A stretch of 64,000 nt of DNA, taken from the NCBI RefSeq assembly GCF_003812745.1, contig NZ_CP033831.1:372001-436000 (forward strand), written 5' to 3'. The position numbers and the translations under genes were made by a program. Below the pieces are notes generated by a model. The model saw only the letters and a program-made list of their open reading frames with translations. It did no database searches and had not been told where the DNA came from. The DNA comes from Serratia sp. FDAARGOS_506 (GTDB taxonomy: Bacteria; Pseudomonadota; Gammaproteobacteria; Enterobacterales; Enterobacteriaceae). How positions within the stretch are numbered: the first letter of the stretch is position 1; each line of letters starts with the position of its first letter. Positions 17,206-39,805 of the stretch are shown here, in pieces.

Positions 17206-17272
17206 TCTGAACCACCCGCAGTAAACTATTCACACCACTACAGTTGGGGAGGCAGCCTCCCCCCAACGGTTA

Positions 17273-20141: not shown

Positions 20142-20330
20142 GGCCTCACATTGCCTGTTTTATTGTTTTTGCTCCAGGCTCAAGTATAGGCAATGCCGCC
20201 GGCTTCACCACGCCTCTCGTCCGCCGAAAAAAGTGGCGCAACCGCCCGCCGCCGCTAGAAAAAAACGTAAATTGTTCTAATCTTTAATCAGCAAGACAAC
20301 ATAATTCCGACAGTGGCTAAGGAGTTCGAA

Positions 20331-20822: not shown

Positions 20823-22769
20823 TTACACCTCTGCCGCCATGGGCAACTCGGGCATTTGTACGCGCAGATCGATATGACGTCCCTCAGGAATGTCGATAGG
20901 CTGACCATCCACATACCCTTCTTTAATATTCCGCGCGAAAACAGGAACACCGTCGTAGGTACGGTGATAACTGCGAATGATGATATCGCCATTGGTTTCA
21001 ACCTGATAATCAACCCAAATCAATGCTTGCTTGTTACTATCTAATGGGATTTCAATCCCACCGTTTATCCCCCCCCAAATTGGGTCGGCATTGAATCCGA
21101 GCGTCCCTGCCATGCGGTAAACCCCTTCGCTGAGCCTCTCCGTTTTTACCCCCAGAACGTCTTCATTGAATACGCTGCGGCCATCACTAAAGAGCTTGAC
21201 TACCGGGGAGGCGGGTTTGAGATATCCATTGGTGTCCGTGATCGTGGAGGCCTCTGTCCAAACCTTGAACCACTTGCTCCACTCGGTACCATTCCAGGTA
21301 CGCAAAAACATCTTCCCACTCTGGTTTCCCGACACCCCATAACCGTAACAAGTTTGCGCCGCGCGATAATTTTCTTTGGTGTCTTCTTGACCGGCTTTCC
21401 AGCCATACACATCCAGAAAATACGTCCCGACATCTTTGAACGGATTCCCCAAAGGATCCGTTCCTACCATTCCTCTGCGCGAGAAGTATCGATCATTAAA
21501 ATCCAGTTTTCTGGCTGCCGTGACACCATAGGTCAATCCCCAATCTTTCAGGTTGGAAATATCCGATACCGTAGGCAAACAGGTATCACCGAAGGTTCGC
21601 CCCCAGCTGATTTTCCCCGCCGATACCGAGTTGGATACACCGGTAAAGAGTGCTCCCGATGAGCCCACAGCCATATACCCTGTTGTTGGGCCACCATCGA
21701 TCGGCAGCGAGACACAGCCAAAAATGTTGTTGGGAAGTGGAGCATTGTCAGAGGCCGGCGTCACTCGATACATGTTGTAAATTCGTTGAAAAGCATCATC
21801 TTTATGCTGGGCACCTGCTCCCAGACCAAACTCCCCTTTTGAAATCAACCGGCTGTCGAGATAATCACGATCGACGACAGTTGCATCGGTCAAGTTCGCA
21901 ATCACTTTTTTACCCAGAGGGCTCTCAGGTATAACGCTATCTTTGGTGGCGACATGATTCCAGTTATCGACCATAGCCATATCTACGCTAGAAATCTCAT
22001 AGAAACACTGATTGATAAAGCTACCAAGATTGACATGTACCTCATACATATTCGCCGTTCGCTCAATCAAACAAACGTCAATGACCGCCGCACGCTCTTG
22101 CAGTGCGTTCCAACATGTCACCCCCGCTCGTCCAGCTGCGTTGACAGTCGAAATTTGCCCATCACCGGTACGTATAACAATACTCGCCATCGCATTATGG
22201 ATCCAAGCTCCGTTATAACCTGGTCCGCCGGTAACATCGATCTTTAGCGTACTTCCACCTTGCGTAAATTTGCTGATTTCACCAAGCAAATACCACCCTG
22301 GGTTCTTTGCCGTACCAGGCATCTTCCAACGAGTGTTATTAATGACTTTTTTAACCGTGACATCCATGCTATCGAGCACTTTCCTATATCCCGGCAAGAT
22401 AATGCGTTGCCCATCGTCTTTTTCTATGGTGACATCACCTGATGAAGTCAATAAATTCATCAAATCATTGCGGCTTCCTTGAAAGTAAGTTAGCAAAGCC
22501 GACAATCTTGCGGAAAACTGGCTGATATCACCTTCATAAGTAGTGATAATCGCGTAATCTTGCCCAGTGGCCGTCGAGCCTGCATAAGGCGAACTTAATA
22601 CAAAGAGATTGTTGTTACTTACAGATTTAATCTCATAAAGTTGATTGTCTGGAGCCAGCAAAATCGTCCCAGGCATCACGCCATTTTTTGCGTCAGCCCA
22701 TTGCGTCCCCACCCCTGCGACGGATGTCCCATTGCTGACAACATTAATTTTTCCCGTTCTGTACCACAT
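20823..22769 (-). CDS. tail fibre protein, second copy
   Basis: A 648-aa fibre. The first about 120 residues (MWYRTGKINVVSNG, GVMPGTILLAPDNQLYEIKSV, YAIITTYEGDISQFSAR, ALLTYFQGSR) are shared with the fibre encoded just upstream and probably attach to the tail. The rest differs in most of its length, including a region near 400-520 (NGTEWSKWFKVWTEAST, short tail-fibre-like repeats) and a unique C-terminus, expected to bind the receptor. No tail-fibre assembly chaperone gene follows. Separated from the first fibre by a terminator-like hairpin. Confidence 0.85.
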   Translation of the reverse strand: MWYRTGKINVVSNGTSVAGVGTQWADAKNGVMPGTILLAPDNQLYEIKSVSNNNLFVLSSPYAGSTATGQDYAIITTYEGDISQFSARLSALLTYFQGSRNDLMNLLTSSGDVTIEKDDGQRIILPGYRKVLDSMDVTVKKVINNTRWKMPGTAKNPGWYLLGEISKFTQGGSTLKIDVTGGPGYNGAWIHNAMASIVIRTGDGQISTVNAAGRAGVTCWNALQERAAVIDVCLIERTANMYEVHVNLGSFINQCFYEISSVDMAMVDNWNHVATKDSVIPESPLGKKVIANLTDATVVDRDYLDSRLISKGEFGLGAGAQHKDDAFQRIYNMYRVTPASDNAPLPNNIFGCVSLPIDGGPTTGYMAVGSSGALFTGVSNSVSAGKISWGRTFGDTCLPTVSDISNLKDWGLTYGVTAARKLDFNDRYFSRRGMVGTDPLGNPFKDVGTYFLDVYGWKAGQEDTKENYRAAQTCYGYGVSGNQSGKMFLRTWNGTEWSKWFKVWTEASTITDTNGYLKPASPVVKLFSDGRSVFNEDVLGVKTERLSEGVYRMAGTLGFNADPIWGGINGGIEIPLDSNKQALIWVDYQVETNGDIIIRSYHRTYDGVPVFARNIKEGYVDGQPIDIPEGRHIDLRVQMPELPMAAEV

Positions 22770-22804
22770 GCTTAAATTCCTTGATATGCAATTGCATCAT
22801 GATT

Positions 22805-22830
22805 AAAAGGCAGGCGTGCCAATGCCTGCC
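22805..22830 (-). terminator. terminator between the two fibre genes
   Basis: On the minus strand GGCAGGC / GCCTGCC (7-bp stem) is followed by TTTTAATC. It would stop tail-operon transcription before the second fibre gene. Confidence 0.72.
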
Positions 22831-22890
22831 GTTAATGACATATTTATAATTAGCAACTCACGAAAGAGAGAAATAAATAGTCGATTCTAA

Positions 22891-24924
22891 TTACTGCAAA
22901 GGTCCAACGTTGGCATCATCTGCATCGGCAAGATCAATATCGCGAAAATCTGCCGCATGTTTTTCCTTCTCATCAACTTCCTGATTCTGAAGGACATCCA
23001 GTCGTAGATCGATCCAGCGCCCCGCCGGAATATCCATAGGCTCACCGGCAATAACCATCGCCGTATCTGCATCGAATCGCCGTTTACTGACTCTGACCGT
23101 GACGACGCCATCGTCGTCAGTCTCCGTCTCTACGAAGCACAAACGGTTGCCGTTGCCATCTTGAGGTATTTCAAACGTCCACCCCTCCTTTGCGAAGCCA
23201 CGAGCACCGGTGAGGCGATAAACGCCAGTCGTGAGCTTTTCTGCAGTGACTCCCGCCGCCTCGGGATTGATCGCCGCTACGCCGGCAAGCATAAAGCCGG
23301 CTAAAAAATCACTGTTCATGCGCTGCGGATCGCTGGACAATCGAGCAATCGGCGAAGCTTTCTTGATAAAGCCGTTGCCATCTACCGTCGTCGTCGCTTC
23401 TGTCCAGTCCTTAATCCATCCAGTCCATTTCGTACCGTTCCACACCCGGGTAAAAACCTTGCCGCTTTCAGAACCAAGGCTGCCATAACCGGAAACCACC
23501 TGCCGCGTGCGAAGCGAACCGGGCTCCGCTCCGCCATCCACTTTCCAGCTTTCAACTTTAATAAACGCGGCGCCCCCCCCCAATTCCGCCGGTCGATTAA
23601 TAGCGTCATTAATCACCATCAACGGACTGGACTGGTATAGCGAATCTAAATTAAGCCGAGCTGCAGCGGTGACTGCCCCCGTCAATCCGTAATCTTTGCC
23701 ATTTCTCAACTCCGAAACGGCAGGAGCATAGAGATCGGTAAACACGCGCTGCCAGAATATTTTTCCTTTATTTTCCCCATAGTTGCTTCCTTGCCCTACC
23801 CAGGCATGCCGCTGCCCGCTCACCGCCAAATAAGCCGCCGATGGGCTGCCATCCAGCGGCAGGGAAACCACCGCTACGTTACCCGCACCACCTGGATAGT
23901 TAGCCGAGTCTTGGTTTATCCGATAAAAACGGTTGAGCATTTCAAACGCATCATCTTTGTGCACAGAAGTGCCGCCAATCCCGGTACCATCGCCAGCCCA
24001 AATGCACTTCTGCAGATCTATTTTCTTGTTTGCCAAACTCTCGACATACTGCGCATAGATTCCCACGTTCATATTGCTGGCAGGAAGGTCGCCCTCGAAA
24101 CGAGTCCCTTTGTTGACCCAACGGCTCAGCATGGTCGAAAGTGACCCTCCTTGCACCGTATAGTAGTTGGAGGCCATGAAACTGCCCAGAGTCACATAAA
24201 CATCGTAATTATTTGCCGATGTTTCTACTAAAGAAAGAGCTTTAATAATAACTTCATTACCTGAGTGAACCACTCTAGCTGAAATGCGCCCACGTGAATT
24301 AACAACGTTATTCTGCGTCCCAGTTCTGATAATAACTTGTGCTCCAGTGTTATTGTAAACCTGGCCATTAAATCCCGCCCCACCAACGATATCTATACTC
24401 ACCGTTGCGCCATTTTGCGGGAAGTTCACCAACGTCCCCCACAAATAAGTGACATCTGCCGTTGTTGTCACCGGCATCGCAAAGCGTAAACGATCGATGG
24501 AAACAAGCGCCTTGTCTTGCATATCCGCCATCAATTTGCCGTACGAAGGTACAGTGATCAACGAACCATCTTCTTTGGTTAATTTAACGTCGCCGGTACC
24601 AGTCAAGACATCGATCAACTCACTACGACTCCCCTGAAAATAGGTTAGCAAGGCGCTGAATCGAGCAGAGAACTGACTGATATCGCCTTCGTAAGTCGTA
24701 ATGATGGCATAGGGTTGCCCATTGGCCGTCTCACCCGAATAACTACTGTTCAAGGTCAATGAAGCATTGCTGTTAACGCTCTTGATTTCATAGAGCTTAT
24801 TATCTGGTGCCAGCAACATCATCCCCGGCATCACGCCGTACTTTGCATCTCCCCATTGTGTGCCGGTCGCAGAAACAGAGGCGCTATTAGCGACAACATT
24901 AATTTTACCCGCTTTATACCACAT
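22891..24924 (-). CDS. tail fibre protein, first copy
   Basis: A 677-aa fibre with the same anchor region as its downstream paralogue (MWYKAGKINVVANSAS, GVMPGMMLLAPDNKLYEIKS, YEGDISQFSARFSALLTYFQG) and a different distal half. WNGTKWTGWIKDWTEATT is shared in the knob region. The C-terminus ends in an acidic tail (DLADADDANVGPLQ). Each is a plausible receptor-binding protein. They may be alternatives or form a mixed tip. It starts 58 bases after the J stop. Confidence 0.85.
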   Translation of the reverse strand: MWYKAGKINVVANSASVSATGTQWGDAKYGVMPGMMLLAPDNKLYEIKSVNSNASLTLNSSYSGETANGQPYAIITTYEGDISQFSARFSALLTYFQGSRSELIDVLTGTGDVKLTKEDGSLITVPSYGKLMADMQDKALVSIDRLRFAMPVTTTADVTYLWGTLVNFPQNGATVSIDIVGGAGFNGQVYNNTGAQVIIRTGTQNNVVNSRGRISARVVHSGNEVIIKALSLVETSANNYDVYVTLGSFMASNYYTVQGGSLSTMLSRWVNKGTRFEGDLPASNMNVGIYAQYVESLANKKIDLQKCIWAGDGTGIGGTSVHKDDAFEMLNRFYRINQDSANYPGGAGNVAVVSLPLDGSPSAAYLAVSGQRHAWVGQGSNYGENKGKIFWQRVFTDLYAPAVSELRNGKDYGLTGAVTAAARLNLDSLYQSSPLMVINDAINRPAELGGGAAFIKVESWKVDGGAEPGSLRTRQVVSGYGSLGSESGKVFTRVWNGTKWTGWIKDWTEATTTVDGNGFIKKASPIARLSSDPQRMNSDFLAGFMLAGVAAINPEAAGVTAEKLTTGVYRLTGARGFAKEGWTFEIPQDGNGNRLCFVETETDDDGVVTVRVSKRRFDADTAMVIAGEPMDIPAGRWIDLRLDVLQNQEVDEKEKHAADFRDIDLADADDANVGPLQ

Positions 24925-24981
24925 ACTTATTTCTCCATGTTTCTAAACATTAAATTAAGATAATTGAACGCCAAAGAACAT

Positions 24982-27900
24982 TCATCCTCTCCAGGACCAG
25001 AATCTATTATTCTTAAGAGGGAAAACCATCATGACAAAAGAGGAAACTATTGTGCTATCTCGATCATCCATAGCGTCAGTCTCAATTCGAATTTGCTGCT
25101 CGCCGGCATACGCTGGAATATCGATTGAAATAGCATCTTCATAAACATCCCCTCCGCTCACTCTACTGAATCGATGTTGACGAAGGATATTCCCGTTCAG
25201 TTTGATTCGCATATTGCATACCGAACCTCGCGGGCTGCTGTAATACACGACCTTGATATTGGGAATGACGAGTCTCACGGCATAGTTCATTCCACCCGCA
25301 TAGACGTAGGTATATACGCCATCATGCTTGCGTAGCGTCTGGGCACTGAATGCCTGCATGCTGGCAATATCACCATCTATCCTATTCGCATAAACCTTGC
25401 CTCTGACATCGCAGTTCTCATTGATGGTCACGTTGTTGAATACGCCTGAAGTGGCGAAAATACGTCCGCGCACATCCATATTACTGAATGTGGCATAACC
25501 ATTCTTATTGATCGCCCATCCCTGCCGATAGGCGGGGTCGTCATGCCAAACGTAGTTTGACGACGTGATTTCCTGTGCTATTTTTGCACTGTCTATCGAA
25601 GCATTGGCGATAAACGCGGCGTTAATAAACGTCTGGCCATTTTGCACGGCAAACGGGGAGGAGACACTTCCGTTTGGATTATTCAGCAACGCAAAACGAT
25701 CCGCCTGGACCAAGAACTGACTGTTGCCCGCGCCATCTACGCCCAACGCCATCCCTGCAACAAACTGCCGCCCTGCGTTGTCAGCCTGTACCTTCAAACT
25801 CCATGATGCCGATATCTTTCCGTTCAATGAAGCCTGTGCCTGTTTGACCTCCTGTACCGCCGCAGTGTTATTACCGGCGGTCGCCGTCACGTGATCAATA
25901 CGTTGTCCTAATGCACTATCGGCGCTTGAACGTACGCTGCTTTCATTCAGCAGATTGGTTTTGACCTTACCCACTTCAGTATTAAGTTGAACAATCTGTT
26001 GTGAAGAGGCCGATTGGTTATCGGTAACTGTTTTCGCCAGTTGGGTAAGTGCAGCGCGATTTCCCTCTGTTTTACTGGATATATCGGTAAGCTGTTTTGC
26101 CTGAGCGCTACCCGTATCCACCAAAACCTGCAGCTGTTGTTCAACGTTCGCTTGATTCTCATCAACCGTGCCGCTTAACGTCGTCAACTGTTGTGCCAAA
26201 GCGCTATCGGCCTGCGCCCTTACCGTCAACTCTGTGGCCAATTTAGCCGCAACGCTACCAAAATTGGCTTGCAAGCCAATCAACTGCCTAGCCTGCGCTT
26301 GTTGCTGATCGGCCAAAACCGTCTGTTGAGTCTGGAGCCCCGCAGTAATGGTGTTTTGTTGCTGAACATCCCCACTTTGCTTCAATGCCAGCTCAATATT
26401 GGCTTTCGCCGTCGCTGCCAACGATTGTGACAGACTGGCATTGGCGCTATCGGCATCAGATTGCGTTTGCTGCAGCTGCGTAATTGCAGCCTGGCTCTCC
26501 CCTACCTGGCTATTAAGTGAATCCAGCCGTTGTGATAATGCGCTGTCCTCAGTCGCGCGTACGGTGAGCTCCTGCCGCAGCCCGGCAGAAACATCGCCAA
26601 AGTTAGCCTGCAGCATAAGCAACTGCCGTGCCTGCGACTCCAGCTTGTCGGCATGAACCTCCTGTTTCGAAATAAGCCCGGCGTTTACCCCAACCTGTTC
26701 TTTCTTGCTGTTATCAAGGTTTAGCGCATTCTCAATATCCGCTTTGCTCAAGGCTTCCAGCGACTGCGTCATTCCCGCCCGTGCACTTTCGGCATCGCTG
26801 ACAACCTGCTGTAGTTGGGCCAAGGTTGCACGACTATCGCCCACTTGACTATTGAGCGAGTCCAAACGTCGTGACAGCGCGCTGTCTTCCGTTGCACGCA
26901 CGGTTAACTCTTGCTGGAGTTCTGCAGAAACATCACCAAAGTTGGCCTGCAAACGTGTCAACTGCCGTGCCTGAGACGCCAACTGATCGGCCTGAACTTG
27001 CTGTTGGACGGTAATCGTGGCGTTAACTTCGTGCTGATCTTTTTTGCTGTTATCAAGATTTAATGCGTTCTCGATATCCGCTTTGCTGAGTGCTTCCAGC
27101 GATTGCGTAATGCCCGCCATTGAACTCTCGGCATTGCTGGCTGCCTGCTGAAGTACATTGATGGCCGAAGCCTGGCCATCAACGGCCGTTCCCAACGTGT
27201 TAAGCGCTTTCGCCTGAGCGCTGTCAGCTTCTGCGCGAGTCTGCGATTCCGCTGCTATCGCTGCCGTATTGGAGCCCGCTTGTGATTCCAGGGCACTCAG
27301 TTGCCGCGCCAGAGCCGACTCGCTATCCGTCAAAGTCTTCAGTTGCTGCGTAACCTGGGCCTGATTATCGCTAAACTCGGCGCCCAATCCGCCCAACTGC
27401 TCACCCATTGCCTGCTGCTGGTTAGCCAATGCTTCCGTTTTTGCCGTAACGGCCGCATTAACCCGACCTTGCTCCGCATGATGGTCATCGACAATTTGGG
27501 CACTAGCGGCCACATCCGATTCCACTTTGGCCAACGCCGCTTGAGCATCTGCCTGCGTTTGTTCCAATTGGGCGATCGTTCCCTGCTGCTTATCGGAAAC
27601 GGCTTTTACCGAATTGATAATTTGGGACATTGCCTCATCGGCATCACTCCTTGCCTGCTTTTCTTGAGCAATTTGCGCCGCATTGCCCGCTGATTTGGCC
27701 ACGACGGCAGCCAATTGCTCTGCCAGCGCTTGGTCCTGTTCCCGCAAGACGCTAACCTGAGAAATCACCTCTGCAATGCTGGTGCCGTCACCGCCGGTCA
27801 ATGCGTCTACTTTAGCCTGCAGCTCGGCATCGGCCCGCTGCAGAGCCGCTCGCGTCCCGCTGAGCTCATGCCGGGCATCTTGAATATCTCCGGCCAACGT

Positions 27901-30699: not shown

Positions 30700-30710
30700 A
30701 TTGCGCCCAT

Positions 30711-30733
30711 AAAAAAAGGCCGCCTGAGCGACC
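30711..30733 (-). terminator. terminator in front of the J-like gene
   Basis: Minus strand GGTCGC-TCAG-GCGGCC (one G-T pair) followed by seven T. It lies between the I-like stop and the chosen J start. Confidence 0.75.
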
Positions 30734-30753
30734 ATGATGAATAAAGAAACGTC

Positions 30754-31374
30754 CTATTGTTGGTTTTCGGCGTAAATGCCCGCTGAGATCACCGCCCCCC
30801 CGATCTCGCGTTCACCGTACAAAATGGGCACAGGGTAGCCCTGTGCAGTGGTATTGACCGGGGAACCGAAAGCATACGAGGGTTTGTTCTCCACCGATTG
30901 TGAAACAGACATGCCGAAGCTGGGTTGCGGTGTCAACATCTGGATGACACCGCCCATCACCATGGAAGCACCCATCATGCTGAGCGTTGAAACGGTGAGA
31001 GAAGTTGCCATGGATGCCTTCCAAAGCGCCAACGTGCCGCCCCCCGTATAAAATGCCCCTATCAAAGCGGCAACGCCGAGCACTATCTGGAACATGCCGC
31101 CGTTCTTGCTGCCCGCAATGATCGGCATGATGCGGATCACGGCATCACCTTTCGAGGTTGCGAACTCTTCAACCCCGATATTTTGATCACCGTTGAAAAA
31201 AGCGAAGTGAATGCCTTGGCGATGAGCGCCCATCATATATTTCTCAAACCCCTCGACCGTGACGCACAACGCGCGCAAGGCTTCACAAGTATCTTCGACC
31301 ACCAACCGGTGAGTCTTGCCAAACCGCTTGCCCAGTTGGCCTCCTAACCTGATTGTTCTCGCTACCTTGTTCAT
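30754..31374 (-). CDS. tail assembly protein I-like
   Basis: A 206-aa protein of the lambda gpI group. The N-terminal half resembles a small beta-grasp domain (IRLGGQLGKRFGKTHRL, VTVEGFEKYM). The C-terminal half has a glycine-rich hydrophobic segment (about 95-155), then GSPVNTTAQGYPVPILYGEREIGGAVISAGIY, a hallmark of gpI. It acts in tail-tip assembly with K and J. Its ATG overlaps the K stop as ATGA. Confidence 0.85.
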   Translation of the reverse strand: MNKVARTIRLGGQLGKRFGKTHRLVVEDTCEALRALCVTVEGFEKYMMGAHRQGIHFAFFNGDQNIGVEEFATSKGDAVIRIMPIIAGSKNGGMFQIVLGVAALIGAFYTGGGTLALWKASMATSLTVSTLSMMGASMVMGGVIQMLTPQPSFGMSVSQSVENKPSYAFGSPVNTTAQGYPVPILYGEREIGGAVISAGIYAENQQ

Positions 31375-32087
31375 AACAACTCCTTACGCCTGACCACTCG
31401 TACCGTTCGTTCTTGGAAATAGCCGTTATAGGGATAACGTTGGCTTAACTGGCCATAGAGATGATGCAACATCATGCTATCCCCTAAATAAATCCCCGCA
31501 TGGTTTGTCACCGGAGCTGAAATTTGCATCATGATCATATCACCCGGCCGTATTTCTCCCGCAAATTCACGAAACCCTTCACGATACCAATGCTCGTCAT
31601 AGAGTCGGGTATGACCATCTCTCCACCACTCATGCTCTACGGAGTAATTATTCAGCATGATTCCATGCTGCCGGTGGTAATAATCCATGATCAATGACCA
31701 GCAATCGGCATGTCCCAGCAGCCAGTTGCGGCCAATCAACGGACGATCGCCACGCGGTGCAATTTCGAGATAATCCCCTTCAGGCCACGACAAAATGCCC
31801 CAGACAATACCCGAATGATCGCACTGAACCCGGTCCAACTCAGAAGGAACTACATTTGGCACATCGGGATGGCTGTGAATAATGCGAATAATTTCCCCAC
31901 ACGCTTCCGCACGAGCATAGTCCTGCGGAGCAATAACAAACCCTTCCAGCGGGCAGTCAGCCACATTATCACACGGCAAATACCGTACTTTACGGCCACT
32001 GAGCACCACAAAACCGCAGCTTTCATTCGGGTACACCGAGCGGGCATGCTCATATATGGCCTGCATAACATGTTCTTGCATGCTCAT
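31371..32087 (-). CDS. tail assembly protein K-like, JAB plus NlpC/P60 peptidase
   Basis: A 238-aa two-domain protein. The N-terminal JAB/MPN metallopeptidase domain (about 1-110) has NESCGFVVL and the zinc motif HSHPDVPNVVPSELDRVQCD. The C-terminal NlpC/P60 domain has catalytic Cys in GHADCWSL and His in TNHAGIYLG. In lambda-like phages gpK processes tip proteins and can cut peptidoglycan. It is the only cell-wall enzyme visible in the locus. It overlaps L and I by 4 bases each. Confidence 0.9.
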   Translation of the reverse strand: MSMQEHVMQAIYEHARSVYPNESCGFVVLSGRKVRYLPCDNVADCPLEGFVIAPQDYARAEACGEIIRIIHSHPDVPNVVPSELDRVQCDHSGIVWGILSWPEGDYLEIAPRGDRPLIGRNWLLGHADCWSLIMDYYHRQHGIMLNNYSVEHEWWRDGHTRLYDEHWYREGFREFAGEIRPGDMIMMQISAPVTNHAGIYLGDSMMLHHLYGQLSQRYPYNGYFQERTVRVVRRKELL

Positions 32088-32836
32088 TTCCCTAAAAGAT
32101 TTGAACCAGGGAAACCACCGAAGGAGAGCGGCTGGGCTTCACCAAACCTTTTTCTGCATGAGGAAACACGGCCGCCACAGACATCCAACGCGGGATCGTC
32201 CACCGGTTGATCATCTTTGTCGAAGCCGGCAACGCCGCCGTAGTCGCAACCTCTTCCTGTACGATACCAACCGCGAATACACCACGTGCACAAACCATGG
32301 ATTTGCCGTGACGGCAATTGTTGCCCCTGCAAATCAAAGGGTGTGGCCAGTTGGAATTCCACGACGGTGTTAGTCTCAGCAGTTTTGCTATCGATATAAA
32401 ATACCTGCACCCGTTCCTGACTGGCATCCGCCAGCGAATTGCCTGCCGGAAAGTTGCGCGCATCAAGGTATTTCACAAAGGTCTGATGTACGGAGACTTT
32501 GGCCTGGACAAGATCGCTGTACGCCAGACATAACGCAGTCACCACATTGCTGATATTAGCAACGCGCAGTTTCGGCGTAGGCTGTGAACCGTCGGTTGTC
32601 GTGGCCAAACCGGTAATTTCATACGGGTAAGCTTCATATTCCTGGCCCCGCCACCAAATTGACCTGGGCTTCAGACGTTGCTCATCCCCTGCAGACGCAG
32701 CAAGCTCCTCAGACTCCCGAGGAAGGCTGTGCGCATGGAAGCGCAGGATGTCCGCGCCAAAACCGGTCCCATCAATTTCAATCAATTGGATAACTTCACC
32801 GGGCTCTAATTTTTGCACATCGCTGTGATATGACAT
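32084..32836 (-). CDS. minor tail protein L-like
   Basis: A 250-aa protein of the lambda gpL family: KLEPGEVIQLIEIDGTGFG, YPYEITGL, VFYIDSKTAETNTVVEFQLATPFDLQGQQLP. The C-terminal part has the conserved cysteines CTWC, GRGC, DVCGG and SSC. In lambda gpL this domain binds an iron-sulfur cluster. It forms part of the tail-tip complex. Its stop overlaps the K start as ATGA. Confidence 0.87.
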   Translation of the reverse strand: MSYHSDVQKLEPGEVIQLIEIDGTGFGADILRFHAHSLPRESEELAASAGDEQRLKPRSIWWRGQEYEAYPYEITGLATTTDGSQPTPKLRVANISNVVTALCLAYSDLVQAKVSVHQTFVKYLDARNFPAGNSLADASQERVQVFYIDSKTAETNTVVEFQLATPFDLQGQQLPSRQIHGLCTWCIRGWYRTGRGCDYGGVAGFDKDDQPVDDPALDVCGGRVSSCRKRFGEAQPLSFGGFPGSNLLGK

Positions 32837-32844
32837 GGCTCCCC

Positions 32845-33186
32845 CTACACCCCGAAGGCCTGTTCAAAGGTAAAACTCACCGAAAACACATTGCGTGAAA
32901 GCGGTGATACCGTGATGGAGTCAGATTTGACTCTAAACAGATTTTTTCTGCCGCCGGGCGGCGTCCAGAAAAAGGCGCGGATCACATGCGCATTTAAAAA
33001 AGCCAACAGCGACTCCGTAACCGTAGGGTGGCCGGTATAGACCAGCTGCCAGGATTGGGTAACGCTGTTTAACCCATTGCTGCTGATTTGCTTATATCCG
33101 TCGCCAAACTGTGCGCTGCGGACATTGTGAGAAAAGTTGCCGACAGGTGCCGCCTGCGTGCGCCATTGAAAAGTATCGATTGGCAT
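32845..33186 (-). CDS. minor tail protein M-like
   Basis: A 113-aa protein, close to lambda gpM (109). It shows FSHNVRSAQFGDGYKQISSNGLNSVTQSW and VIRAFFWTPPGGRKNLFRVKSDS, typical of the gpM/distal-tail (Dit-like) family. The start at 33186 has TGGAGTAAAT upstream. The frame extends further upstream through a terminator hairpin and is not used. Confidence 0.87.
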   Translation of the reverse strand: MPIDTFQWRTQAAPVGNFSHNVRSAQFGDGYKQISSNGLNSVTQSWQLVYTGHPTVTESLLAFLNAHVIRAFFWTPPGGRKNLFRVKSDSITVSPLSRNVFSVSFTFEQAFGV

Positions 33187-33201
33187 ATTTACTCCAGACA
33201 T

Positions 33202-33223
33202 AAAAAAACCCGCCGTAGCGGGT
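33202..33223 (-). terminator. terminator between tape measure and M-like genes
   Basis: Minus strand ACCCGC-TACG-GCGGGT followed by seven T. A strong intrinsic terminator inside the tail operon. Confidence 0.85.
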
Positions 33224-33260
33224 TGTGACCGTATATTTCGTAGTTTTAGCACCGATAAAA

Positions 33261-35705
33261 TCAGCGCGCTCCCGAGGCATTCCAAATTAATCCCCCCGGT
33301 TTTAGTTCTTTGCTCAACCGTTCGGTAATCGCTTGGTTGACGATACCCTGTACGATTTTCCCCATCCCTCCCGCAGGAGACTCACCGGCGTTACGCGCAT
33401 TGCCATCCTGGCTCATCACCACAGTACTATTTACCGTAATACCGCCTCCCCGATCGCCTTTCAGTCCGAACATCGGTGCACGCTCGCCGACCAAACCACC
33501 GTCAGCGTAGCCGCGCATCATGGCGTAAAGATGACCTACGCCAATACGCTGCGTCGCCTCCTTGGTCATGACAAACTCACCGCGATGCACAACGCCGGCA
33601 GCATCATACTTGCCGCCATCACCGGTATACCCACCGGAGGACTTCAACCCCATCGGCACCGCCCCGGGAGTGTTACCGCCCGAAGAAGCATCTCGGGCAA
33701 TCCATCCCATGGCTTTTTGCACCATAAACGCCACCAACAACTGATTGATAACCTGGACGATCATTTTCAAGATAGAGGAAGTAAACTCTTGAAAACTGGT
33801 TTTCCCTGTGGTGACCATATCCGTCAACATTCCGGAAAGGCCGTTAAAGGTGGCTCGCCCAACATCCGCCATAGAGGCGTAAACGTTGGTCGCAGTATCC
33901 AGATATTCGCTCCATCCTTTACGTGCACCGGCAAGCCAGTCGCCACGAACCTTATCTTCAGCGGCGAATGTGTTTGTCAGCTCGCTCACCATATTTGCCG
34001 CAAACGGGTTTTCTTTATTCTCCCGACTCAACTGCTGAAGCTCACGACGGCGTTGCAATTCACGGTCACTCACTCCGCTTTCTTGCAGTACTTGCTGGGA
34101 TTTTGAGCGTTGTTGATTAATGTAATCCGCCGCAATATGGCCGTAGTCGGGCTTTTCTTGCCCTTTCGCCGACGAGACAGGGGCCGCTACCGCCGTGGGA
34201 GAATAAAATCCGGAGCGCTTATTGCGCTTACCCAGCCACGTGTCTATTTGCTCACGGCTGTCCCCCTTGTGAACAGGCGGTTGTTCCGCCGTCATGGCCT
34301 CACGATATCCTGCAAGACCGGCACTGATTCTTGCGTGCCCCTGAAAGATGCTCTCCTCTAACTTAGCTGAGGTCTTCTGGCTGTCCTCAACAATTTTTTT
34401 ATTCGTCTCAATAAAACCGTTAAGAAAGTCAACGTGGGCCATCTTGGCGATAGGCCCCAAAGAATCAACGATAAAGCCGGAAATCAATCCATCGCCTTTT
34501 GTGATTAACAGCCTGACTTCATCGATAAGCGTGCCCACGATATCTTTCACCAACCTGGCCATGGCCAACATATCCACGCCAACGCCATGTGCGGCATCAG
34601 AAGCCCATTTTTTTACGTCCATCCACATCAGCGACAGCGGAGACATGTTTTCCATGATAGCCGCAGACTGCCTGCCGGTCTCATCACCATAGAACTGCAT
34701 CGCCAACGTAGCCGCATCGGTGCTTTTCCCAGCATCGACCAAACGAGAGACATGCTCTAACATCTCAACGTTGACAAAGCCATACTGCTTACCCAACTCC
34801 GCCAATCCTTTAACGGGATCGTCCGCTATTTTGCGGAAGTTGGCTTCAACCTCTTCAGCGGTCACCTCGGTCACCGCACCAAGATCCTGCGTTGCTTTGG
34901 CAATAATGCCTATCTGCGGCGCGGAATAACGTCCCAAACGGTTCAAAGACGTGAGTAATGTTTCATTCGAACTGATGCTGCTGTTCGTCATTGAACCGAT
35001 AGAAACTGCCAGAGACTCCATTTGGCCAATCGAGTTGAAGGCCTGGCCGTTGGTCATAATGATGGAAGTTCGCATACTGTCGAATGATTCACGGACGTTA
35101 TAGCCCCAACTGGCCAACGTTGCGACACCACCGATGACCCCACCCAAAGCGGCGCTGGTGGTCACCAGCAATGGGCGTAATGCTTGCAACGTATTGCTTA
35201 CGCCACCAAATGAAGTGACCAGTTGTGCCCCATGATTTAGCGCAACTTTCCAAACAGGCTCCCCCGACGCCAATGACGACACCAAACCCAACATATTGGT
35301 TGATAGAGTGTTTAATGTTTCCTTATAGGCTTTGGCATTATTATTACCAGTATGCATATCAGCAGCTTGCTGCCCCATTTGCCTTCTAAGCTGCTGCAGC
35401 GCCGCCCCATGGCGCCTTAAACCTTGCTCATCGAAGGCGCTGCGGGAAACTGAACTCTGGGTTTGACGTTGCTGCCGAATCAACTTGCCCAATTCATTAT
35501 TTAACGGACCCAGCCGAGTCGACATCTGATGTAAACTATCACTATAGCGGCGGAGATCCTGCGCCCCACTACGAAAAGCGCGATTCAGCACATCGATTTT
35601 ACCGACGGTTGCCGAAGCGTTACGTTGCAAGTCGTTCAATTCTTTATTCGCACGCTGCAAATCACCGGTATGAATACGCAGCGTCATGGTTGCAATATCT
35701 GCCAT
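33261..35705 (-). CDS. tail tape measure protein (H-like)
   Basis: An 814-aa protein, alpha-helical at the N-terminus (DLQRANKELNDLQRNASATVGK, QLRRQMGQQAADMH), with the lambda tail length tape-measure domain (about 190-330), a hydrophobic stretch (LLVTTSAALGGVIGGVATLASWGY) and a C-terminal glycine-rich DUF-like end with GGYTGDGGKYDAAGVVHRGEFVMTKEATQRIG. The length sets the tail length: by the rough rule of 0.15 nm per residue, about 120 nm. It precedes M in canonical order. Confidence 0.92.
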   Translation of the reverse strand: MADIATMTLRIHTGDLQRANKELNDLQRNASATVGKIDVLNRAFRSGAQDLRRYSDSLHQMSTRLGPLNNELGKLIRQQRQTQSSVSRSAFDEQGLRRHGAALQQLRRQMGQQAADMHTGNNNAKAYKETLNTLSTNMLGLVSSLASGEPVWKVALNHGAQLVTSFGGVSNTLQALRPLLVTTSAALGGVIGGVATLASWGYNVRESFDSMRTSIIMTNGQAFNSIGQMESLAVSIGSMTNSSISSNETLLTSLNRLGRYSAPQIGIIAKATQDLGAVTEVTAEEVEANFRKIADDPVKGLAELGKQYGFVNVEMLEHVSRLVDAGKSTDAATLAMQFYGDETGRQSAAIMENMSPLSLMWMDVKKWASDAAHGVGVDMLAMARLVKDIVGTLIDEVRLLITKGDGLISGFIVDSLGPIAKMAHVDFLNGFIETNKKIVEDSQKTSAKLEESIFQGHARISAGLAGYREAMTAEQPPVHKGDSREQIDTWLGKRNKRSGFYSPTAVAAPVSSAKGQEKPDYGHIAADYINQQRSKSQQVLQESGVSDRELQRRRELQQLSRENKENPFAANMVSELTNTFAAEDKVRGDWLAGARKGWSEYLDTATNVYASMADVGRATFNGLSGMLTDMVTTGKTSFQEFTSSILKMIVQVINQLLVAFMVQKAMGWIARDASSGGNTPGAVPMGLKSSGGYTGDGGKYDAAGVVHRGEFVMTKEATQRIGVGHLYAMMRGYADGGLVGERAPMFGLKGDRGGGITVNSTVVMSQDGNARNAGESPAGGMGKIVQGIVNQAITERLSKELKPGGLIWNASGAR

Positions 35706-35721
35706 GTCTGGCTCCTCGCCA

Positions 35722-35746
35722 CAACAAAAGCCAGCACGGGGCTGGC
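35722..35746 (-). terminator. terminator between GT and tape measure genes
   Basis: Minus strand GCCAGC-CCCGT-GCTGGC followed by TTTTGTTGT. Confidence 0.7.
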
Positions 35747-35760
35747 ACCCTCGCAGGCGA

Positions 35761-36066
35761 TCATTTTCGGTGAATGACTCTTAGCGCTGCGTTTTCCATA
35801 ATACGGATATCATTTAATGTGCTCGCCTCGTCATCTACCGCATAAACCTTCATTAACCAAGGCAGACAGTTATAATCCAACCCGGTGACACCATTCATTC
35901 CGATACGCCACTGCGTCGCCATCATCTGGAAAATAGTGACAGCTGATACCATATCCGGCCAGATTTCCAGAGTGACCGTTTCGTAGTCATCTATCGTTAA
36001 TCCAAATGCGGCAAGCTCTTCGGGAGGGGTTTTAGGCGTGTAGAAAGCCTCGGCAAGCGCCGTCAG
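35761..36066 (-). CDS. T extension of the G-T tail assembly chaperone (made by -1 frameshift)
   Basis: An open frame of 101 codons, -1 relative to the G-like gene, with no start or ribosome site of its own at its 5' end. It runs LTALAEAFYTPKTPPEELAAFGLTIDDYETVTLEIWPDMV and ends VIHRK. Joined through the slippery heptamer at the end of G it gives a gpGT-like fusion chaperone that coats the tape measure during tail assembly, as in lambda. An internal ATG at 35952 would give only 63 aa and is unlikely to be the main product. Confidence 0.8.
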   Translation of the reverse strand: MTALAEAFYTPKTPPEELAAFGLTIDDYETVTLEIWPDMVSAVTIFQMMATQWRIGMNGVTGLDYNCLPWLMKVYAVDDEASTLNDIRIMENAALRVIHRK

Positions 36067-36416
36067 TTTTTTTCCCGTACCACCATCAACTCTTTGGTAT
36101 ACGCAGTGGCAATTGCATCAAACGCGCGCGGATAGTTATCAAGCAATGTGATAATGCTTTCTCTATTCAACGTGTCGGGCAATGCCCATCCATCACAAAT
36201 TTCGTGTAAGAAATCGGCCATAGGTTCATTGTTGTAGCTACCCGCATCCAATTGCTGTTCGGTTGCTTCGCGCAGCGATTTTTCCAGCGTTTCCAATTGG
36301 CTGCGTTTTTTATGTTTGAACGAAAATGTCAATATTCCATCCTCGCTTCCCGCACGTGGAATAGCAACGTCAATGCTAAAAGTTGGGGTTGGGTTAAGGG
36401 TAAATTCAGTCATCAT
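36063..36416 (-). CDS. tail assembly chaperone G-like
   Basis: A 117-aa protein between the tube and tape measure genes, the position of lambda gpG: FTLNPTPTFSIDVAIPR, TFSFKHKKRSQLETLEKSL, and a helical C-terminus ending VREKN. The stop is just after an AAAAAAC run. Tandem ATG codons at 36416 and 36413; GGAG stands about 8 bases before the first. It chaperones the tape measure protein with its frameshifted form. Confidence 0.83.
   Translation of the reverse strand: MMTEFTLNPTPTFSIDVAIPRAGSEDGILTFSFKHKKRSQLETLEKSLREATEQQLDAGSYNNEPMADFLHEICDGWALPDTLNRESIITLLDNYPRAFDAIATAYTKELMVVREKN
36066..36073 (-). other. -1 programmed frameshift slippery site
   Basis: On the minus strand the G frame reads GAA AAA AAC TGA. 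A AAA AAC is a classic XXXYYYZ slippery heptamer. Slipping back one base leaves AAA then CTG ACG GCG and opens the T frame of 101 codons. The arrangement (slip just before the short-frame stop) is that of lambda G/GT, where the heptamer is GGGAAAG. Confidence 0.82.
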
Positions 36417-36445
36417 GAAAAAGCTCCAAGCAAAAATAGTGTCGT

Positions 36446-36478
36446 TGAAAAACAGGCCTTACCGAGATAAGACCTGTT
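36446..36478 (-). terminator. terminator between tube and G-like genes
   Basis: An 11-bp stem with one wobble pair (AACAGGTCTTA / TAAGGCCTGTT, minus strand), loop of 6, followed by TTTTTC counted with the stem end. Confidence 0.7.
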
Positions 36479-36489
36479 CGCCGTACCGA

Positions 36490-37152
36490 TTAAAGGGTAG
36501 TTTTATAGAAAGTCATGTCGCTGGACTGAATTGCCAGCGATACAGTCACAGTTTCCACCTGGTTGACAGCCGTTGTTGGTTGAGGGTCAAAAGATGGAAT
36601 TGCTGACCAATAGCGCAGTTCGTTAGCTTTAGGGACGTACATATAAAATGCCAAAACATCGCCATTACGATCCGCATTCTGCAACACGCTATAAATTGGC
36701 TGTGTCGAATCGTGAGCGAAGGTAAAGGTTTGCGTTTTCGCCGCCTTGAATGTCGCGAGGTTGCGTTGACGATCATCCTCAAGAAACTGAACCTGAGCAT
36801 ATTGTTGATCGCCGCCCGACTGAGCCACTTCGGTAATTTGCGGAATTTGGGTCCAGTTGGCGACTTTAGTCAGTGCACCTTTACCGATACCGGCAGGGAA
36901 AAACTTCACATCCGAAGTATTGATCGCACCAATAGTAACGCTGGTATCGGTTGAGGCTGTGATCTTGGCAACCAAGTCATCAATCAGCCCCCAGCCTGAA
37001 TTGACAATGACAATGTCCCCAATTTTCAAACCATGACCTGTGGCCAGAGTAAATACAGCGCCATTAGCGTTGCTAACCGCCGTCGTTGCTACCGTCGAAG
37101 TAGCAGGGATACCGGCAAATACAGTTGCGCCATTAGGTAATGCAAAACTCAT
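36490..37152 (-). CDS. major tail tube protein (V-like)
   Basis: A 220-aa protein in the V position. It is beta-rich: MSFALPNGATVFAG, a Big-like first domain with GHGLKIGDIVIVNSGWGLID, then SGGDQQYAQVQFLEDDRQRNLATFKAAKTQTFTFAHDSTQPIY, the usual siphophage tail tube core, and VETVTVSLAIQSSDMTFYK at the end. It forms the tube through which DNA would pass in a phage. Confidence 0.83.
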   Translation of the reverse strand: MSFALPNGATVFAGIPATSTVATTAVSNANGAVFTLATGHGLKIGDIVIVNSGWGLIDDLVAKITASTDTSVTIGAINTSDVKFFPAGIGKGALTKVANWTQIPQITEVAQSGGDQQYAQVQFLEDDRQRNLATFKAAKTQTFTFAHDSTQPIYSVLQNADRNGDVLAFYMYVPKANELRYWSAIPSFDPQPTTAVNQVETVTVSLAIQSSDMTFYKTTL

Positions 37153-37174
37153 GGTAATTCTCCATTTTTAGATA

Positions 37175-37197
37175 TAAAAAAACCGCCAGGAGGCGGT
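37175..37197 (-). terminator. terminator in front of the tube gene
   Basis: Minus strand ACCGCC-TCCT-GGCGGT followed by seven T, in the gap between the U-like stop and the tube start. Confidence 0.82.
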
Positions 37198-37278
37198 AAC
37201 AGATAAAAAGAAAGACATCATTTTGATGTGCTTCTTCATTGCATTTATAATCGGTTACGTCTCAGCGCATTAGAAACC

Positions 37279-37683
37279 TCATGACTGAGACCAATAACTG
37301 ATACTAACAGGAATGATATAGCTATCTTCTTTTTGAATAGCAGGTAAAACACTGGCCGGGGAATTAATACTGCAGCTCAAATAATCATCGGAAAGCTCAG
37401 CACCATTGGGAAAAAGTGACAACACCCGCTCCGCTAACAGATAGCCCTCATGGCTCCCCTCGCCTTTTTTGATCACAATATTGATCTGATAATTACCGCT
37501 GTATACCGTCACATCCTGAGAAACACCGACCCCCTGATTGACTGCAGGAACAATAAATGGCTCAAGATGCAACACCGCACTTCCCTCAACAGGGAAATTT
37601 GCCAACGTATAGTCGATATTGTTTTTTTCCGCCCATTGCAACAGTACCGACTCAAACAAATCTTTTATCTTTAAGGTACTCAA
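37279..37683 (-). CDS. tail terminator-like protein (DUF4128/U-like)
   Basis: A 134-aa protein if started at TTG 37683 (LSTLKIKDLFESVLLQWAEKN), which has TTGGAGG five bases upstream. A GTG one codon earlier is too close. It shows PVEGSAVLHLEPFIVPAVNQGVGV and DVTVYSGNYQINIVIKKGEGSHEGYLLAERVLSLFPNGAEL, resembling DUF4128 tail terminator proteins, which cap the tail tube. It is first of the structural genes. A reading from 37764 (161 aa) is possible but lacks a ribosome site. Confidence 0.75.
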   Translation of the reverse strand: MSTLKIKDLFESVLLQWAEKNNIDYTLANFPVEGSAVLHLEPFIVPAVNQGVGVSQDVTVYSGNYQINIVIKKGEGSHEGYLLAERVLSLFPNGAELSDDYLSCSINSPASVLPAIQKEDSYIIPVSISYWSQS

Positions 37684-37896
37684 CACAACCTCCAAATTAT
37701 TTAACCCATAAATCCTCTCATGCCCATCAGGAATTGACACACCCCTATACGGTGTTTTTCTCAACGAGAATAAAAAATTAGAATTAATGCCTCATGCATA
37801 CCAACTTCAGATGTTATCAAGCTACATGATAAAATTCGAAGCGAGAAGAATTATTTTATTATTTTTTTAAATTAAAAAACAAAACAAACAAAAACA

Positions 37897-37911
37897 CCCC
37901 GATAAACGGGG
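37897..37911 (-). terminator. terminator after the Q-like gene
   Basis: Minus strand CCCCG-TTTAT-CGGGG followed by TGTTTTTGTTTTG. Its position right after Q matches that of the lambda tR' terminator, the point where Q acts. Confidence 0.75.
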
Positions 37912-37954
37912 CTATATAAAAAATGTGAAAAATCTCAGCTTTTTTATGAATACG

Positions 37955-38323
37955 CTAATATTTTTCCATCTGCAACTTTATTTCCTCATGAGATAAACAT
38001 CCATCTATAAAACCTTCCGCAATTTGCATTTGCTGACGAACTCTCCCTTCAGAGCATTTCCAACCACGTGCGATAGCCGATTTTGATTCGCCATACACAT
38101 AGTGACGCAGAATCAATTCCAACTCTTCTGGTTGACGTATAGCCTGCAATCGAGCAACGGCACGATCGACAGCCAATCCGTCTTCATCACAACAAGAAAG
38201 GCGATTCTTTGCCGTATGCGGCAACAATCCCTTAAAGCCCGCAGCGATATGAGAGTATCCCATCGAAGGATGTTCCCGCGCCCAGCCTCCCCACCGCATC
38301 AATACCTGCTGTATATCCCTCAT
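37955..38323 (-). CDS. antitermination protein Q-like
   Basis: A 122-aa protein of the phage 82/antitermQ group: MRDIQQVLMRWGGWA, GYSHIAAGFKGLLP, RLSCCDEDGL, a predicted HTH (ESKSAIARGWKCSEGRVRQQMQIAEGF) and IDGCL. Such proteins let RNA polymerase read through terminators on the late operon. The start at 38323 has the strong AGGAGG; the longer ORF reading to 38416 is not needed. It is divergent from the repressor and upstream of the tail genes, so it likely turns the tail operon on. Confidence 0.85.
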   Translation of the reverse strand: MRDIQQVLMRWGGWAREHPSMGYSHIAAGFKGLLPHTAKNRLSCCDEDGLAVDRAVARLQAIRQPEELELILRHYVYGESKSAIARGWKCSEGRVRQQMQIAEGFIDGCLSHEEIKLQMEKY

Positions 38324-38427
38324 GCCCCCTCCTGGAATGTACCTTATGAATTCACTATCACTCAAAAAATGTGCTAAAAGTACATTTACTCTGACTAAAA
38401 CCATCAATAAATGCACCCAATGGATAC

Positions 38428-38489
38428 ATTATGCATATAAAAAATAGTTAAACAAGTAACTTGTACCATTTTGGTACATATGCTGTAAT
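38428..38489. promoter_or_regulatory. divergent promoters and operators of repressor and Q-like genes
   Basis: For the repressor: -35 TTGTAC (38461-38466), 17-base spacer, -10 TGTAAT (38484-38489). For Q: minus strand -35 TTGTTT (38455-38450), 16-base spacer, -10 CATAAT (38433-38428). A perfect palindrome GTACCA-TTT-TGGTAC (38463-38477) lies in the repressor promoter and a near-perfect ACAAGT-A-ACTTGT (38452-38464) touches the Q -35. These are the likely operators. Confidence 0.65.
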
Positions 38490-38496
38490 AAGTGAT

Positions 38497-39168
38497 ATGA
38501 AAACGATCGAAGAAATCCGACGGGAAAACGCCAGAAAATTGCGCGACGGCGTGGGCGGCAACTCAAACTTCGCTGCCATGTTGGATCGCGAAGCGACGCA
38601 AATCAGCCGAGTTATCGGTAAAAACCCCACAAAAAAAATTGGCGACGATCTCGCTCGCCATATGGAAATTTGTTTTTCTCTTGCTACCGGATGGTTGGAT
38701 AAAACCCATGACACCGCCGCCGGCCACACCAACGTTCAGGAAACATCGTACGGCAACGATAAAAAGATAAAATTGGTTCCGGTGATATCCTGGGTTCAGG
38801 CAGGAGCCTGGACGGAAATCGCGTTTTCAGAGGTTGATTTGATTCAAACAGAACACTATCCCTGCCCTGTCGCCTGTGGGGAAAGGACCTACATTTTGCG
38901 TGTGGTCGGCGATTCAATGAGCCCGGAATACTCCCCTGGCGATCTGATTTTTGTCGATCCTGATGTTACCCCCTGGAATGGCGATGACGTGATCGCTTTA
39001 ATGAGCGACTTCGGCGAAACCACATTTAAACGTTTTATTGAAGAGGGCTCAGAACGGATGCTAAAAGCACTCAATCCTGATTGGCCGGAACGTTACATCC
39101 CAATCAACAGCAACTGCCATATCATCGGTACTGTTATCTTTTCGGGTAAATCTCGTCGCCATCGATAA
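38497..39168 (+). CDS. LexA/CI-like S24 phage repressor
   Basis: A 223-aa repressor. The N-terminal HTH (SNFAAMLDREATQISRVIGKNP, GDDLARHMEICF) binds DNA. The C-terminal S24 domain has the cleavage site Ala-Gly in WVQAGAW, catalytic Ser in VGDSMSPEYSPGDLIF and Lys in ETTFKRF. RecA-stimulated self-cleavage would make the locus SOS-inducible. The start at 38497 fits the promoter; an upstream in-frame TTG overlaps the operator. No integrase or Cro gene accompanies it. Confidence 0.88.
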   Translation: MKTIEEIRRENARKLRDGVGGNSNFAAMLDREATQISRVIGKNPTKKIGDDLARHMEICFSLATGWLDKTHDTAAGHTNVQETSYGNDKKIKLVPVISWVQAGAWTEIAFSEVDLIQTEHYPCPVACGERTYILRVVGDSMSPEYSPGDLIFVDPDVTPWNGDDVIALMSDFGETTFKRFIEEGSERMLKALNPDWPERYIPINSNCHIIGTVIFSGKSRRHR

Positions 39169-39232: not shown

Positions 39233-39805
39233 TCAACGGCTGCGCTTGGCGTGGCGCTCAAAGTTTTCCGCCTTGGCCTGTGCCGATTTACGCAGCGTGA
39301 CGTAGCAGGCGCCCTCACCGCCGTCGCGCGGTAAGGCGCGGCAAAACGCCTGTACCTGTTCAAACTGCGCCAGCCATTTGGCGACGTAACTGCGCACGAT
39401 ATTCGGATGGCTTTCGTTCTGCCGCCCGCGGCCGTGCACGATCAGCAGCGAACGCAGGTTTTGCGCCTCCGCCTGCACGATGAAGCGAAACAGTGCCTGC
39501 CTGCTGGCTTCGACCGACTGACGCAGCAGGTTCAGCGACGCCTGCGGCGGGTAACGGCCGTTGCGCAACTTGTCCAGCACGCCCTGTTGAATGCCTTCCC
39601 CTTTGAACTCCAGCGGCTGTTCGCAGGGGATCACCTCGAGAAAATCGGTGCTGAGGAAGTTTTCCTGCAGCAGCCGCTGCGCTTCGCGCCGCGCGCTTTT
39701 GTCCACCGTCTCCTGCGGCTTGAGGTACAGCGTCTGCCGCCTGCTCGCCAGCGGCACCACGTCCGCCATCGCCTGTTCAAAAAAGTCTTTTTCCTGCTCG
39801 CTCAT
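39233..39805 (-). CDS. smrA: DNA endonuclease SmrA (Smr domain)
   Basis: A 190-aa protein matching E. coli YdaL/SmrA: FLSTDFLEVIPCEQPLEFKGEGIQQGVLDKLRNG, the Smr nuclease motif LLIVHGRGRQNESHPNIVRSYVAKWL and GEGACYVTLRKSAQAKAENFERHAKRSR. Smr domains nick DNA or act on RNA. The start at 39805 follows AGAGGTGG. The longer ORF is not supported. It is the first host gene right of the tail locus. Confidence 0.93.
   Translation of the reverse strand: MSEQEKDFFEQAMADVVPLASRRQTLYLKPQETVDKSARREAQRLLQENFLSTDFLEVIPCEQPLEFKGEGIQQGVLDKLRNGRYPPQASLNLLRQSVEASRQALFRFIVQAEAQNLRSLLIVHGRGRQNESHPNIVRSYVAKWLAQFEQVQAFCRALPRDGGEGACYVTLRKSAQAKAENFERHAKRSR

Follow-up and report, generated by a model that had tools for sequence, protein, structure and literature searches.

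A tail-only lambda-type locus of Serratia as a candidate F-type tailocin without linked lysis genes

The stretch of DNA considered here (the window, 64,000 nucleotides of contig NZ_CP033831.1 of Serratia sp. FDAARGOS_506) carries between the host genes smrA and doxX a cluster of non-contractile phage tail genes, which on the evidence set out below is a candidate F-type tailocin. Genes were identified by Pfam and PHROGs matches on the scanned open reading frames (ORFs) between smrA and doxX, and the cluster (20823-39168, minus strand) was found to consist of U, V, G, T, H, M, L, K, I, J and two fibre genes, with the antiterminator gene Q ahead of them and a CI-type repressor gene divergent from Q (Table 1). 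An earlier note on this DNA had described a complete lambda-order tail set together with Q and a repressor, and every gene was identified at the place given. Three starts were revised by conservation: Q at 38323, U at 37683 (TTG) and cI at 38497. The G+C content of the segment is 50%, compared with 55% and 62% in the flanks.

Table 1. Features of the tail-only locus and its surroundings (positions in the window)
Feature	Position	Strand	Evidence or remark
Tail fibre 2, 648 amino acids (aa)	20823..22769	-	Phage_tail_C_2 E 1.1e-49; PHROG tail fibre; frame open
Tail fibre 1, 677 aa	22891..24924	-	Phage_tail_C_2 E 1.9e-34; frame open
J, central tip / receptor-binding fibre, 1917 aa	24982..30735	-	PHROG central tail fiber J; best PDB match F2-pyocin 25vf_A
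I, tail tip assembly protein	30754..31374	-	Lambda_tail_I; PDB 9l9p, then 25vf
K, JAB + NlpC/P60 tip protein	31371..32087	-	Pfam; dN/dS 0-0.10 where dS measurable
L, tip hub protein	32084..32836	-	Phage_tail_L E 4e-73; best PDB match F2-pyocin BHP 25vf_7
M, minor tail protein	32845..33285	-	Phage_min_tail; PDB 9l9p, then F2-pyocin MF2
H, tape measure protein, 814 aa	33261..35705	-	TMP_2 + Tape_meas_lam_C
T part of GT, by -1 frameshift from G	35761..35952	-	DUF1799; -1 frame open over junction
Slippery heptamer A AAA AAC before G stop	36066..36072	-	kept in 15/15 tail-only copies
G, tail assembly chaperone	36063..36416	-	Phage_TAC_4 E 6e-25
V, major tail tube protein	36490..37152	-	Phage_tail_3 E 1.5e-52; solved phage tube proteins
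U, tail terminator, 134 aa, TTG start	37279..37683	-	Phage_tail_terminator_5; start set by conservation
Conserved element CGCTTCGAATTTTATCATGTAGCTTGATAAC between Q and U	37813..37843	-	alignment, 11 copies
Intrinsic-terminator-like hairpin directly after Q	37896..37912	-	sequence; same place in other copies
Q antiterminator, 122 aa	37955..38323	-	Phage_antitermQ E 7e-46
Divergent cI-Q control region, palindrome TGTACCATTTTGGTACA at 38462-38478	38324..38496		sequence
CI-type repressor, S24 autoprotease domain	38497..39168	+	Peptidase_S24 E 1.9e-25
doxX, left host boundary, outside element	20313..20744	+	host gene
smrA, right host boundary, outside element	39233..39910	-	host gene
Methyltransferase-GNAT interval; empty here, tail-only site of four other genomes	17206..17272		locus comparison

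The structural genes are intact, as the earlier note had stated. The 12 genes that were re-translated (all but G and T) have no internal stop, and on rechecking M was found open in each of the 15 tail-only copies. In a separate reading of G and T, the final bases of G are A AAA AAC TGA, with the -1 frame carrying on into T, so that a GT product can arise by the usual slippage. The reported lack of head, packaging, integration and replication genes, and of any holin or endolysin, was likewise borne out, in that no family of these kinds (head, terminase, portal, integrase, replication, holin or endolysin) matched among the scanned ORFs, very small ORFs not being scanned singly. The set expected of a functional prophage was not found in the cluster, where integrase, replication, packaging and head genes were without a match, and the neck gene Ne1 is absent from the whole genome. 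A lysis gene concealed between Q and U was considered and rejected, the interval being AT-rich DNA with the terminator-like hairpin and a conserved element.

The affinities of the tail proteins were judged against solved structures. J scored highest with the F2-pyocin tail fiber (25vf_A, 893 bits, compared with 832 for phage 9l9p and 476 for lambda J) and L with the F2-pyocin BHP protein (25vf_7, 232 bits, compared with 195 for 9l9p and 91 for lambda), I, M and H also match F2-pyocin proteins, and V matches solved phage tube proteins. Since a full siphophage tail set without head, packaging or replication genes is thus combined with tip homology, the locus is placed with the F-type tails, in agreement with the F-type-pyocin-like make-up claimed by the earlier note. 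It is classed here as a candidate F-type tailocin, and as a variant one in having CI/Q control and no lysis genes in cis. Filing it as a defence system was rejected, PADLOC having returned no match for five of the proteins.

A number of relatives of the locus were found. At a threshold of E 1e-30, V was matched in 33 out of 392 genomes from the family; besides the window's own genome (G000), context was read for 10 of the other 32, leaving 22 unread with V at about 32-55% identity. These ten, with G012, G416 and two loci of G419, make up 14 loci beside the window, of which four are tail-only (in G362, G106, G416 and G419, all of the genus g78, where the locus occurs in four of seven genomes) and ten are prophages. 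The layout Q-U-V-G-T-H-M-L-K-I-J-fibre is identical in the four tail-only genomes. By comparison, in all ten prophages matches to Ne1 and Hc1 (neck) and Ad1 (adaptor) precede U, with matches to portal, minor capsid and terminase genes further up, and the major capsid query matched in six. A search of IMG/VR with V gave 17 loci, nine with Q directly before U, six of prophage type without Q before U (head genes not checked), a short contig (L071) that is alike and starts after Q, and one weak fragment. One of the IMG/VR copies (L075) is identical to that of G362 across the ten genes compared, and since some copies are identical to genomes in this way there are fewer independent copies than rows. 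As a control from the side of Q, the best 80 of 145 Q relatives in IMG/VR were inspected, and U lies behind Q in nine and not in 71; of the latter, 25 have an endolysin or spanin match and seven are on contigs that end less than 1 kb from Q, with the next gene out of view. The tail-only locus is therefore maintained in five genomes of two genera and on nine IMG/VR contigs.

The control region offers some indication of how the locus might be regulated. Between cI and Q there is a gap of 173 bases that contains the perfect palindrome TGTACCATTTTGGTACA and additional GTACA half-sites, which together form a candidate operator. Ala102-Gly103, Ser140 and Lys178 of the CI-type repressor were read from the translation within the S24 domain, a residue pattern typical of repressors that undergo RecA-stimulated self-cleavage by an established mechanism. 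The nearest phage repressors (best 8 of 428 records) are 66-68% identical, and a search of IMG/VR for close relatives of CI gave three weak matches only. Q is 98% identical to one of the other tail-only Q proteins in IMG/VR and 76-79% identical to eight. The hairpin after Q occurs in the same place, with an altered stem, wherever another copy extends to this point, CGCTTCGAATTTTATCATGTAGCTTGATAAC is a candidate late promoter or Q-binding element, and the two together may be the target of antitermination by Q. G106 (L121), L072 and L077 have in common some 120 bp of inserted DNA between Q and U, which resembles a small dispersed repeat. No strict LexA box was found upstream of Q, and no PrtN activator of the Pseudomonas aeruginosa pyocin type was present among the scanned genes, the regulators being the S24 repressor and Q only. 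In the g78 genomes a conserved imperfect dyad, TTGTCC-N10-CCTACAA, lies upstream of Q (five of seven copies; L119-L126), and it does not fit TGT-N12-ACA, the Ogr/NucC site consensus given in the available part of PMC3931495.

The missing lysis genes pose the question of release. A linked lysis cassette was found neither in the window nor beside the four other copies, where queries with phage lysis genes gave no match, and its absence in cis is common to the whole tail-only clade; such a cassette is treated here as usual, not defining, for an F-type tailocin. Phage_lysozyme genes are present in all five tail-locus genomes, and one is orthologous in all five, where it forms a cassette between rplS and aroF together with an HP1-family holin gene and a gene for an Ogr/Delta zinc finger. 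In G000 this lies at about 2316282-2316791 of C2 (L160 9486-10500), a separate locus some 1.9 Mb from the tail genes. Upstream of the holin in each of the five there is a LexA box, TACTGTATATGCATACAGTA or similar, which agrees with the LexA consensus at 18-19 of 20 positions. The cassette is conserved across the two related genera. Of the 25 further large Serratia genomes, none with a tail-only locus, at least 10 have it in the same position, with a box of 17-19 of 20. It is presumably nucEDC, the operon of the activator NucC. In S. marcescens NucC has been described as an activator from a cryptic prophage that acts on the production of nuclease and bacteriocin, and a title cited by the same paper calls it a homolog of P2 Ogr (PMC2716549, available part). 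The PF01223 nuclease genes have TGT-N12-ACA upstream in six of ten cases, and nothing links these sites to the tail locus. In the ten genomes having the nuclease gene a LexA-like box, judged by eye, lies directly upstream of it (L225-L234), and the gene is absent from the four g78 genomes searched. The sharing of lysis genes between particles has been described for two tailocins of P. chlororaphis, which use one lysis cassette (PMC12090994, available part). Sharing with an R-type tailocin was considered for the present locus and rejected, since there is no sheath gene (PF04984) in G000, G362 or G416 and one each in G106 and G419; a GH19 endolysin was not found above the cut-off in the five genomes, G362 having one sub-threshold match.

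The earlier note's suggestion that release depends on another prophage is thus close in placing lysis in trans, although the better candidate is not a prophage but the conserved stand-alone SOS cassette at rplS, which may have a role in tail release and through it a link with the tail locus. That the tailocin is real and is released by some other route, either by the lysis genes of a co-resident prophage, by the second Phage_lysozyme gene of G000 or in a manner like type 10 secretion, with no part played by the rplS cassette, is considered rather unlikely. The cassette also occurs apart from the tail locus, the second lysozyme gene, at 3.38 Mb (L159, G000:C2:3373000-3392900), lies near integrase-like sequence judged by eye in what is perhaps a degraded prophage, and there is precedent in holin-based type 10 secretion or lysis, which the parts of the literature available describe for Salmonella and Yersinia entomophaga. 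Against this, the 3.38 Mb lysozyme reaches at most 35% identity with the lysozyme loci compared from the other tail-locus genomes, whereas five of five have the rplS cassette with its SOS box.

A second rival is that the cluster is a decaying remnant, a prophage shorn of its head, lysis and integration genes by deletion. The absence of integrase and lysis genes, the occurrence of the locus in one of 26 large genomes of its own genus and junctions without clean attachment repeats could all be so explained, but the trimmed layout shared by the genomes and contigs described above, which form one clade for V, speaks against it. In the V tree a single branch separates 14 tail-only rows from 17 prophage and phage rows (99/97; 98% of bootstrap trees). 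Selection was assessed from the ratio of non-synonymous to synonymous substitution rates (dN/dS) in ten chosen pairs, several with saturated dS, so that figures are given only where dS was measurable, and some comparisons of M and Q rest on few codons. For Q, V, G, L, K and I the ratio is 0-0.17, with a single exception of 0.32 from a near-identical pair; it is 0.06-0.45 in H and 0.03-0.23 in U, where one near-identical pair that differs by few changes gives 1.52. These values point to purifying selection on the core tail genes. The suspicion of decay voiced in the earlier note was not confirmed, as the selection, the lack of any broken gene and the retained slippery heptamer strongly contradict it, and a remnant is accordingly improbable.

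Neither did a recent deletion of a full prophage, which the earlier note had offered as a way in which close relatives might undo its reading, find any support. V occurs in two of 30 genomes of the genus, G000 and G012, in the latter within a full prophage at another place, and is absent from the remaining 28. In the 25 further large genomes of the genus (V being absent from all except G012) smrA and doxX are spaced by 46-77 bp in 23, the exceptions being G003 with about 500 bp and G016 without a smrA match. With the layout shared and the V clade separate, a recent deletion was rejected. The four g78 genomes have the locus at a different point, between GNAT and methyltransferase genes that are direct neighbours in the window (families confirmed for the window and G416), and in G416 the genes past the fibres are host-like (methyltransferase, GNAT, hydrolase, rhodanese, ArsR and LysE). 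Neighbourhood and orientation are the same in G000 and these four whilst the junctions differ, and both vertical descent with a local move and two insertions at one hot spot fit. The notion that a tail-only locus is conserved between smrA and doxX therefore holds for the neighbourhood, shared by four other genomes, but the interval itself is not shared, the second site being a few genes away. In G003 (L200; 960-1458 and 3261-7104, smrA orientation) the smrA-doxX gap measures about 500 bp and the methyltransferase-GNAT gap about 3.8 kb, and these insertions at both gaps indicate that the neighbourhood takes up inserts. Attachment repeats were looked for, and CATCGAT near both ends was rejected as such, because the empty sites are at odds with a clean insertion.

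The two proteins that would be expected to reflect the loss of a head or the dimensions of the particle are U and H. At a V identity of 68-72%, U of tail-only loci is only 29-33% identical to that of prophages, whereas eight prophage pairs at 65-74% for V keep U at 41-52%. Such drift would fit the release of U from head docking, and a swap of U would explain it equally. The tape measure protein ranges from 469 to 815 amino acids across the tail-only copies, and tail length should therefore vary among them. Compared with the window there is up to about 0.4 kb of extra DNA between H and L in L072, L077, L084 and L125 (between H and M). Head genes elsewhere in the genome, which the earlier note held would tell against a tailocin, were looked for in part, by a genome-wide search for Ne1 and not for the terminase and capsid families in general: Ne1, the neck gene of the matching head type, was not found in G000, G362, G106 or G416. 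It is very improbable that the locus is a tail donor, supplying tails to headed, tail-less satellites or defective prophages for DNA transfer and not for use as a bacteriocin. In favour of the idea, U, the would-be head-docking part, is retained and mostly under selection; against it, U has diverged far from the head-docking relatives compared, and Ne1 is missing from those four genomes (tail-less satellites not searched for).

The locus is real and maintained, encodes a headless siphophage tail and is best read as a variant F-type tailocin. The following working may be proposed. CI would repress the Q promoter until DNA damage led to its self-cleavage and so freed Q, which would carry transcription past the terminator that follows the Q gene and on through the tail operon of about 17 kb. 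Tails would then assemble, with their length set by the tape measure and U as the cap, and would bind competitors through J and the two fibres, killing them by opening the envelope. The LexA-controlled holin, lysozyme and Ogr cassette at rplS-aroF, responding to the same SOS signal, would be the likeliest route of release, so that tails and lysis would meet in one cell from two loci, the tail operon being freed via CI and the lysis genes via LexA. That a headless-tail particle really is made under some condition can be held with a good deal of confidence, and the particle is probably an antibacterial F-type tailocin. The composite reading, of a domesticated and functional headless siphophage tail that acts as an F-type-pyocin-like tailocin and is likely to be released via the rplS cassette, is on balance favoured by the genes and their conservation. 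Release mainly by that cassette is, taken singly, a tentative proposal that falls somewhat short of even, and more tentative still is the idea of a split, SOS-synchronised weapon, in which the tail operon would have lost its lysis genes for good because the genus keeps the rplS cassette as a common release module for nuclease, colicin-like bacteriocin and headless tails.

A variety of observations weigh against the tailocin reading. The L tree (14 versus 15 rows) recovers the same split as the V tree as its best tree, with weak support (64/54), and dN/dS goes up to 1.52 for U in the one pair noted above and to 0.45 for H. Low conservation of U is not specific to tail-only loci, as the headed phage ZDD2 has a U that is 29-34% identical to those of other prophages at a V identity of 55-63%. 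The slippery heptamer is also present in two prophages compared, and its retention would point to inheritance more than to use. For I, M and H the phage structure 9l9p is a better match than F2-pyocin, and it follows close behind for J. The locus is confined to one of the large genomes of its own genus. The rplS cassette, being present in at least 10 of 25 genomes without a tail locus, is not dedicated to tails and serves other ends as well. Its Ogr/NucC activator was considered as a direct activator of the tail operon and rejected, because the seven copies inspected contain no TGT-N12-ACA in the vicinity of Q or U. In the four g78 genomes CI is missing from beside Q, and the DNA upstream of Q contains no strict LexA box, so that SOS control of the tails is supported for the G000 type only. 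The particle, its induction and its killing action are, moreover, predictions from the genes.

F-type tailocins have been described from few groups of bacteria, and Serratia includes opportunistic pathogens. None of the matches listed in a search of the literature describes, by title or abstract start, an F-type tailocin in Serratia, and in the available part of a genus-wide Serratia genomics paper (PMC9440931) the word 'tailocin' occurs only within a reference. A natural flexible-tail killer with several fibres is predicted in a genus that holds such pathogens. The locus provides a clean, selected example free of lysis genes and, in the rplS cassette, a concrete candidate for release in trans, which makes the separate encoding of particles and lysis testable. 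If the split arrangement were true, tailocin loci could evolve and move without lysis genes, and tail loci that lack them should not be dismissed as decayed.

The locus can be compared with several known systems. The phiES15 and pAEv1818-type prophages are alike in tail gene order and families, with V at 65-70% identity, but in them Q is separated from U by genes for lysis, terminase, portal, capsid and neck, whereas here the two adjoin. The S. marcescens cryptic-prophage NucC operon is resembled by the holin, lysozyme and Ogr/Delta zinc-finger genes found here at rplS with a LexA box. The F-type pyocins of P. aeruginosa are controlled by the PrtN/PrtR pair. The locus shares with them (F2-pyocin, PDB 25vf) a headless, lambda-like, non-contractile tail set, with J and L nearest and I, M and H homologous, whereas it is controlled by CI and Q and has no linked lysis cassette. 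The monocins of Listeria belong to a Gram-positive host and a different tail family. They resemble the proposed particle in being headless F-type tails that serve as bacteriocins, according to a title cited in PMC12090994.

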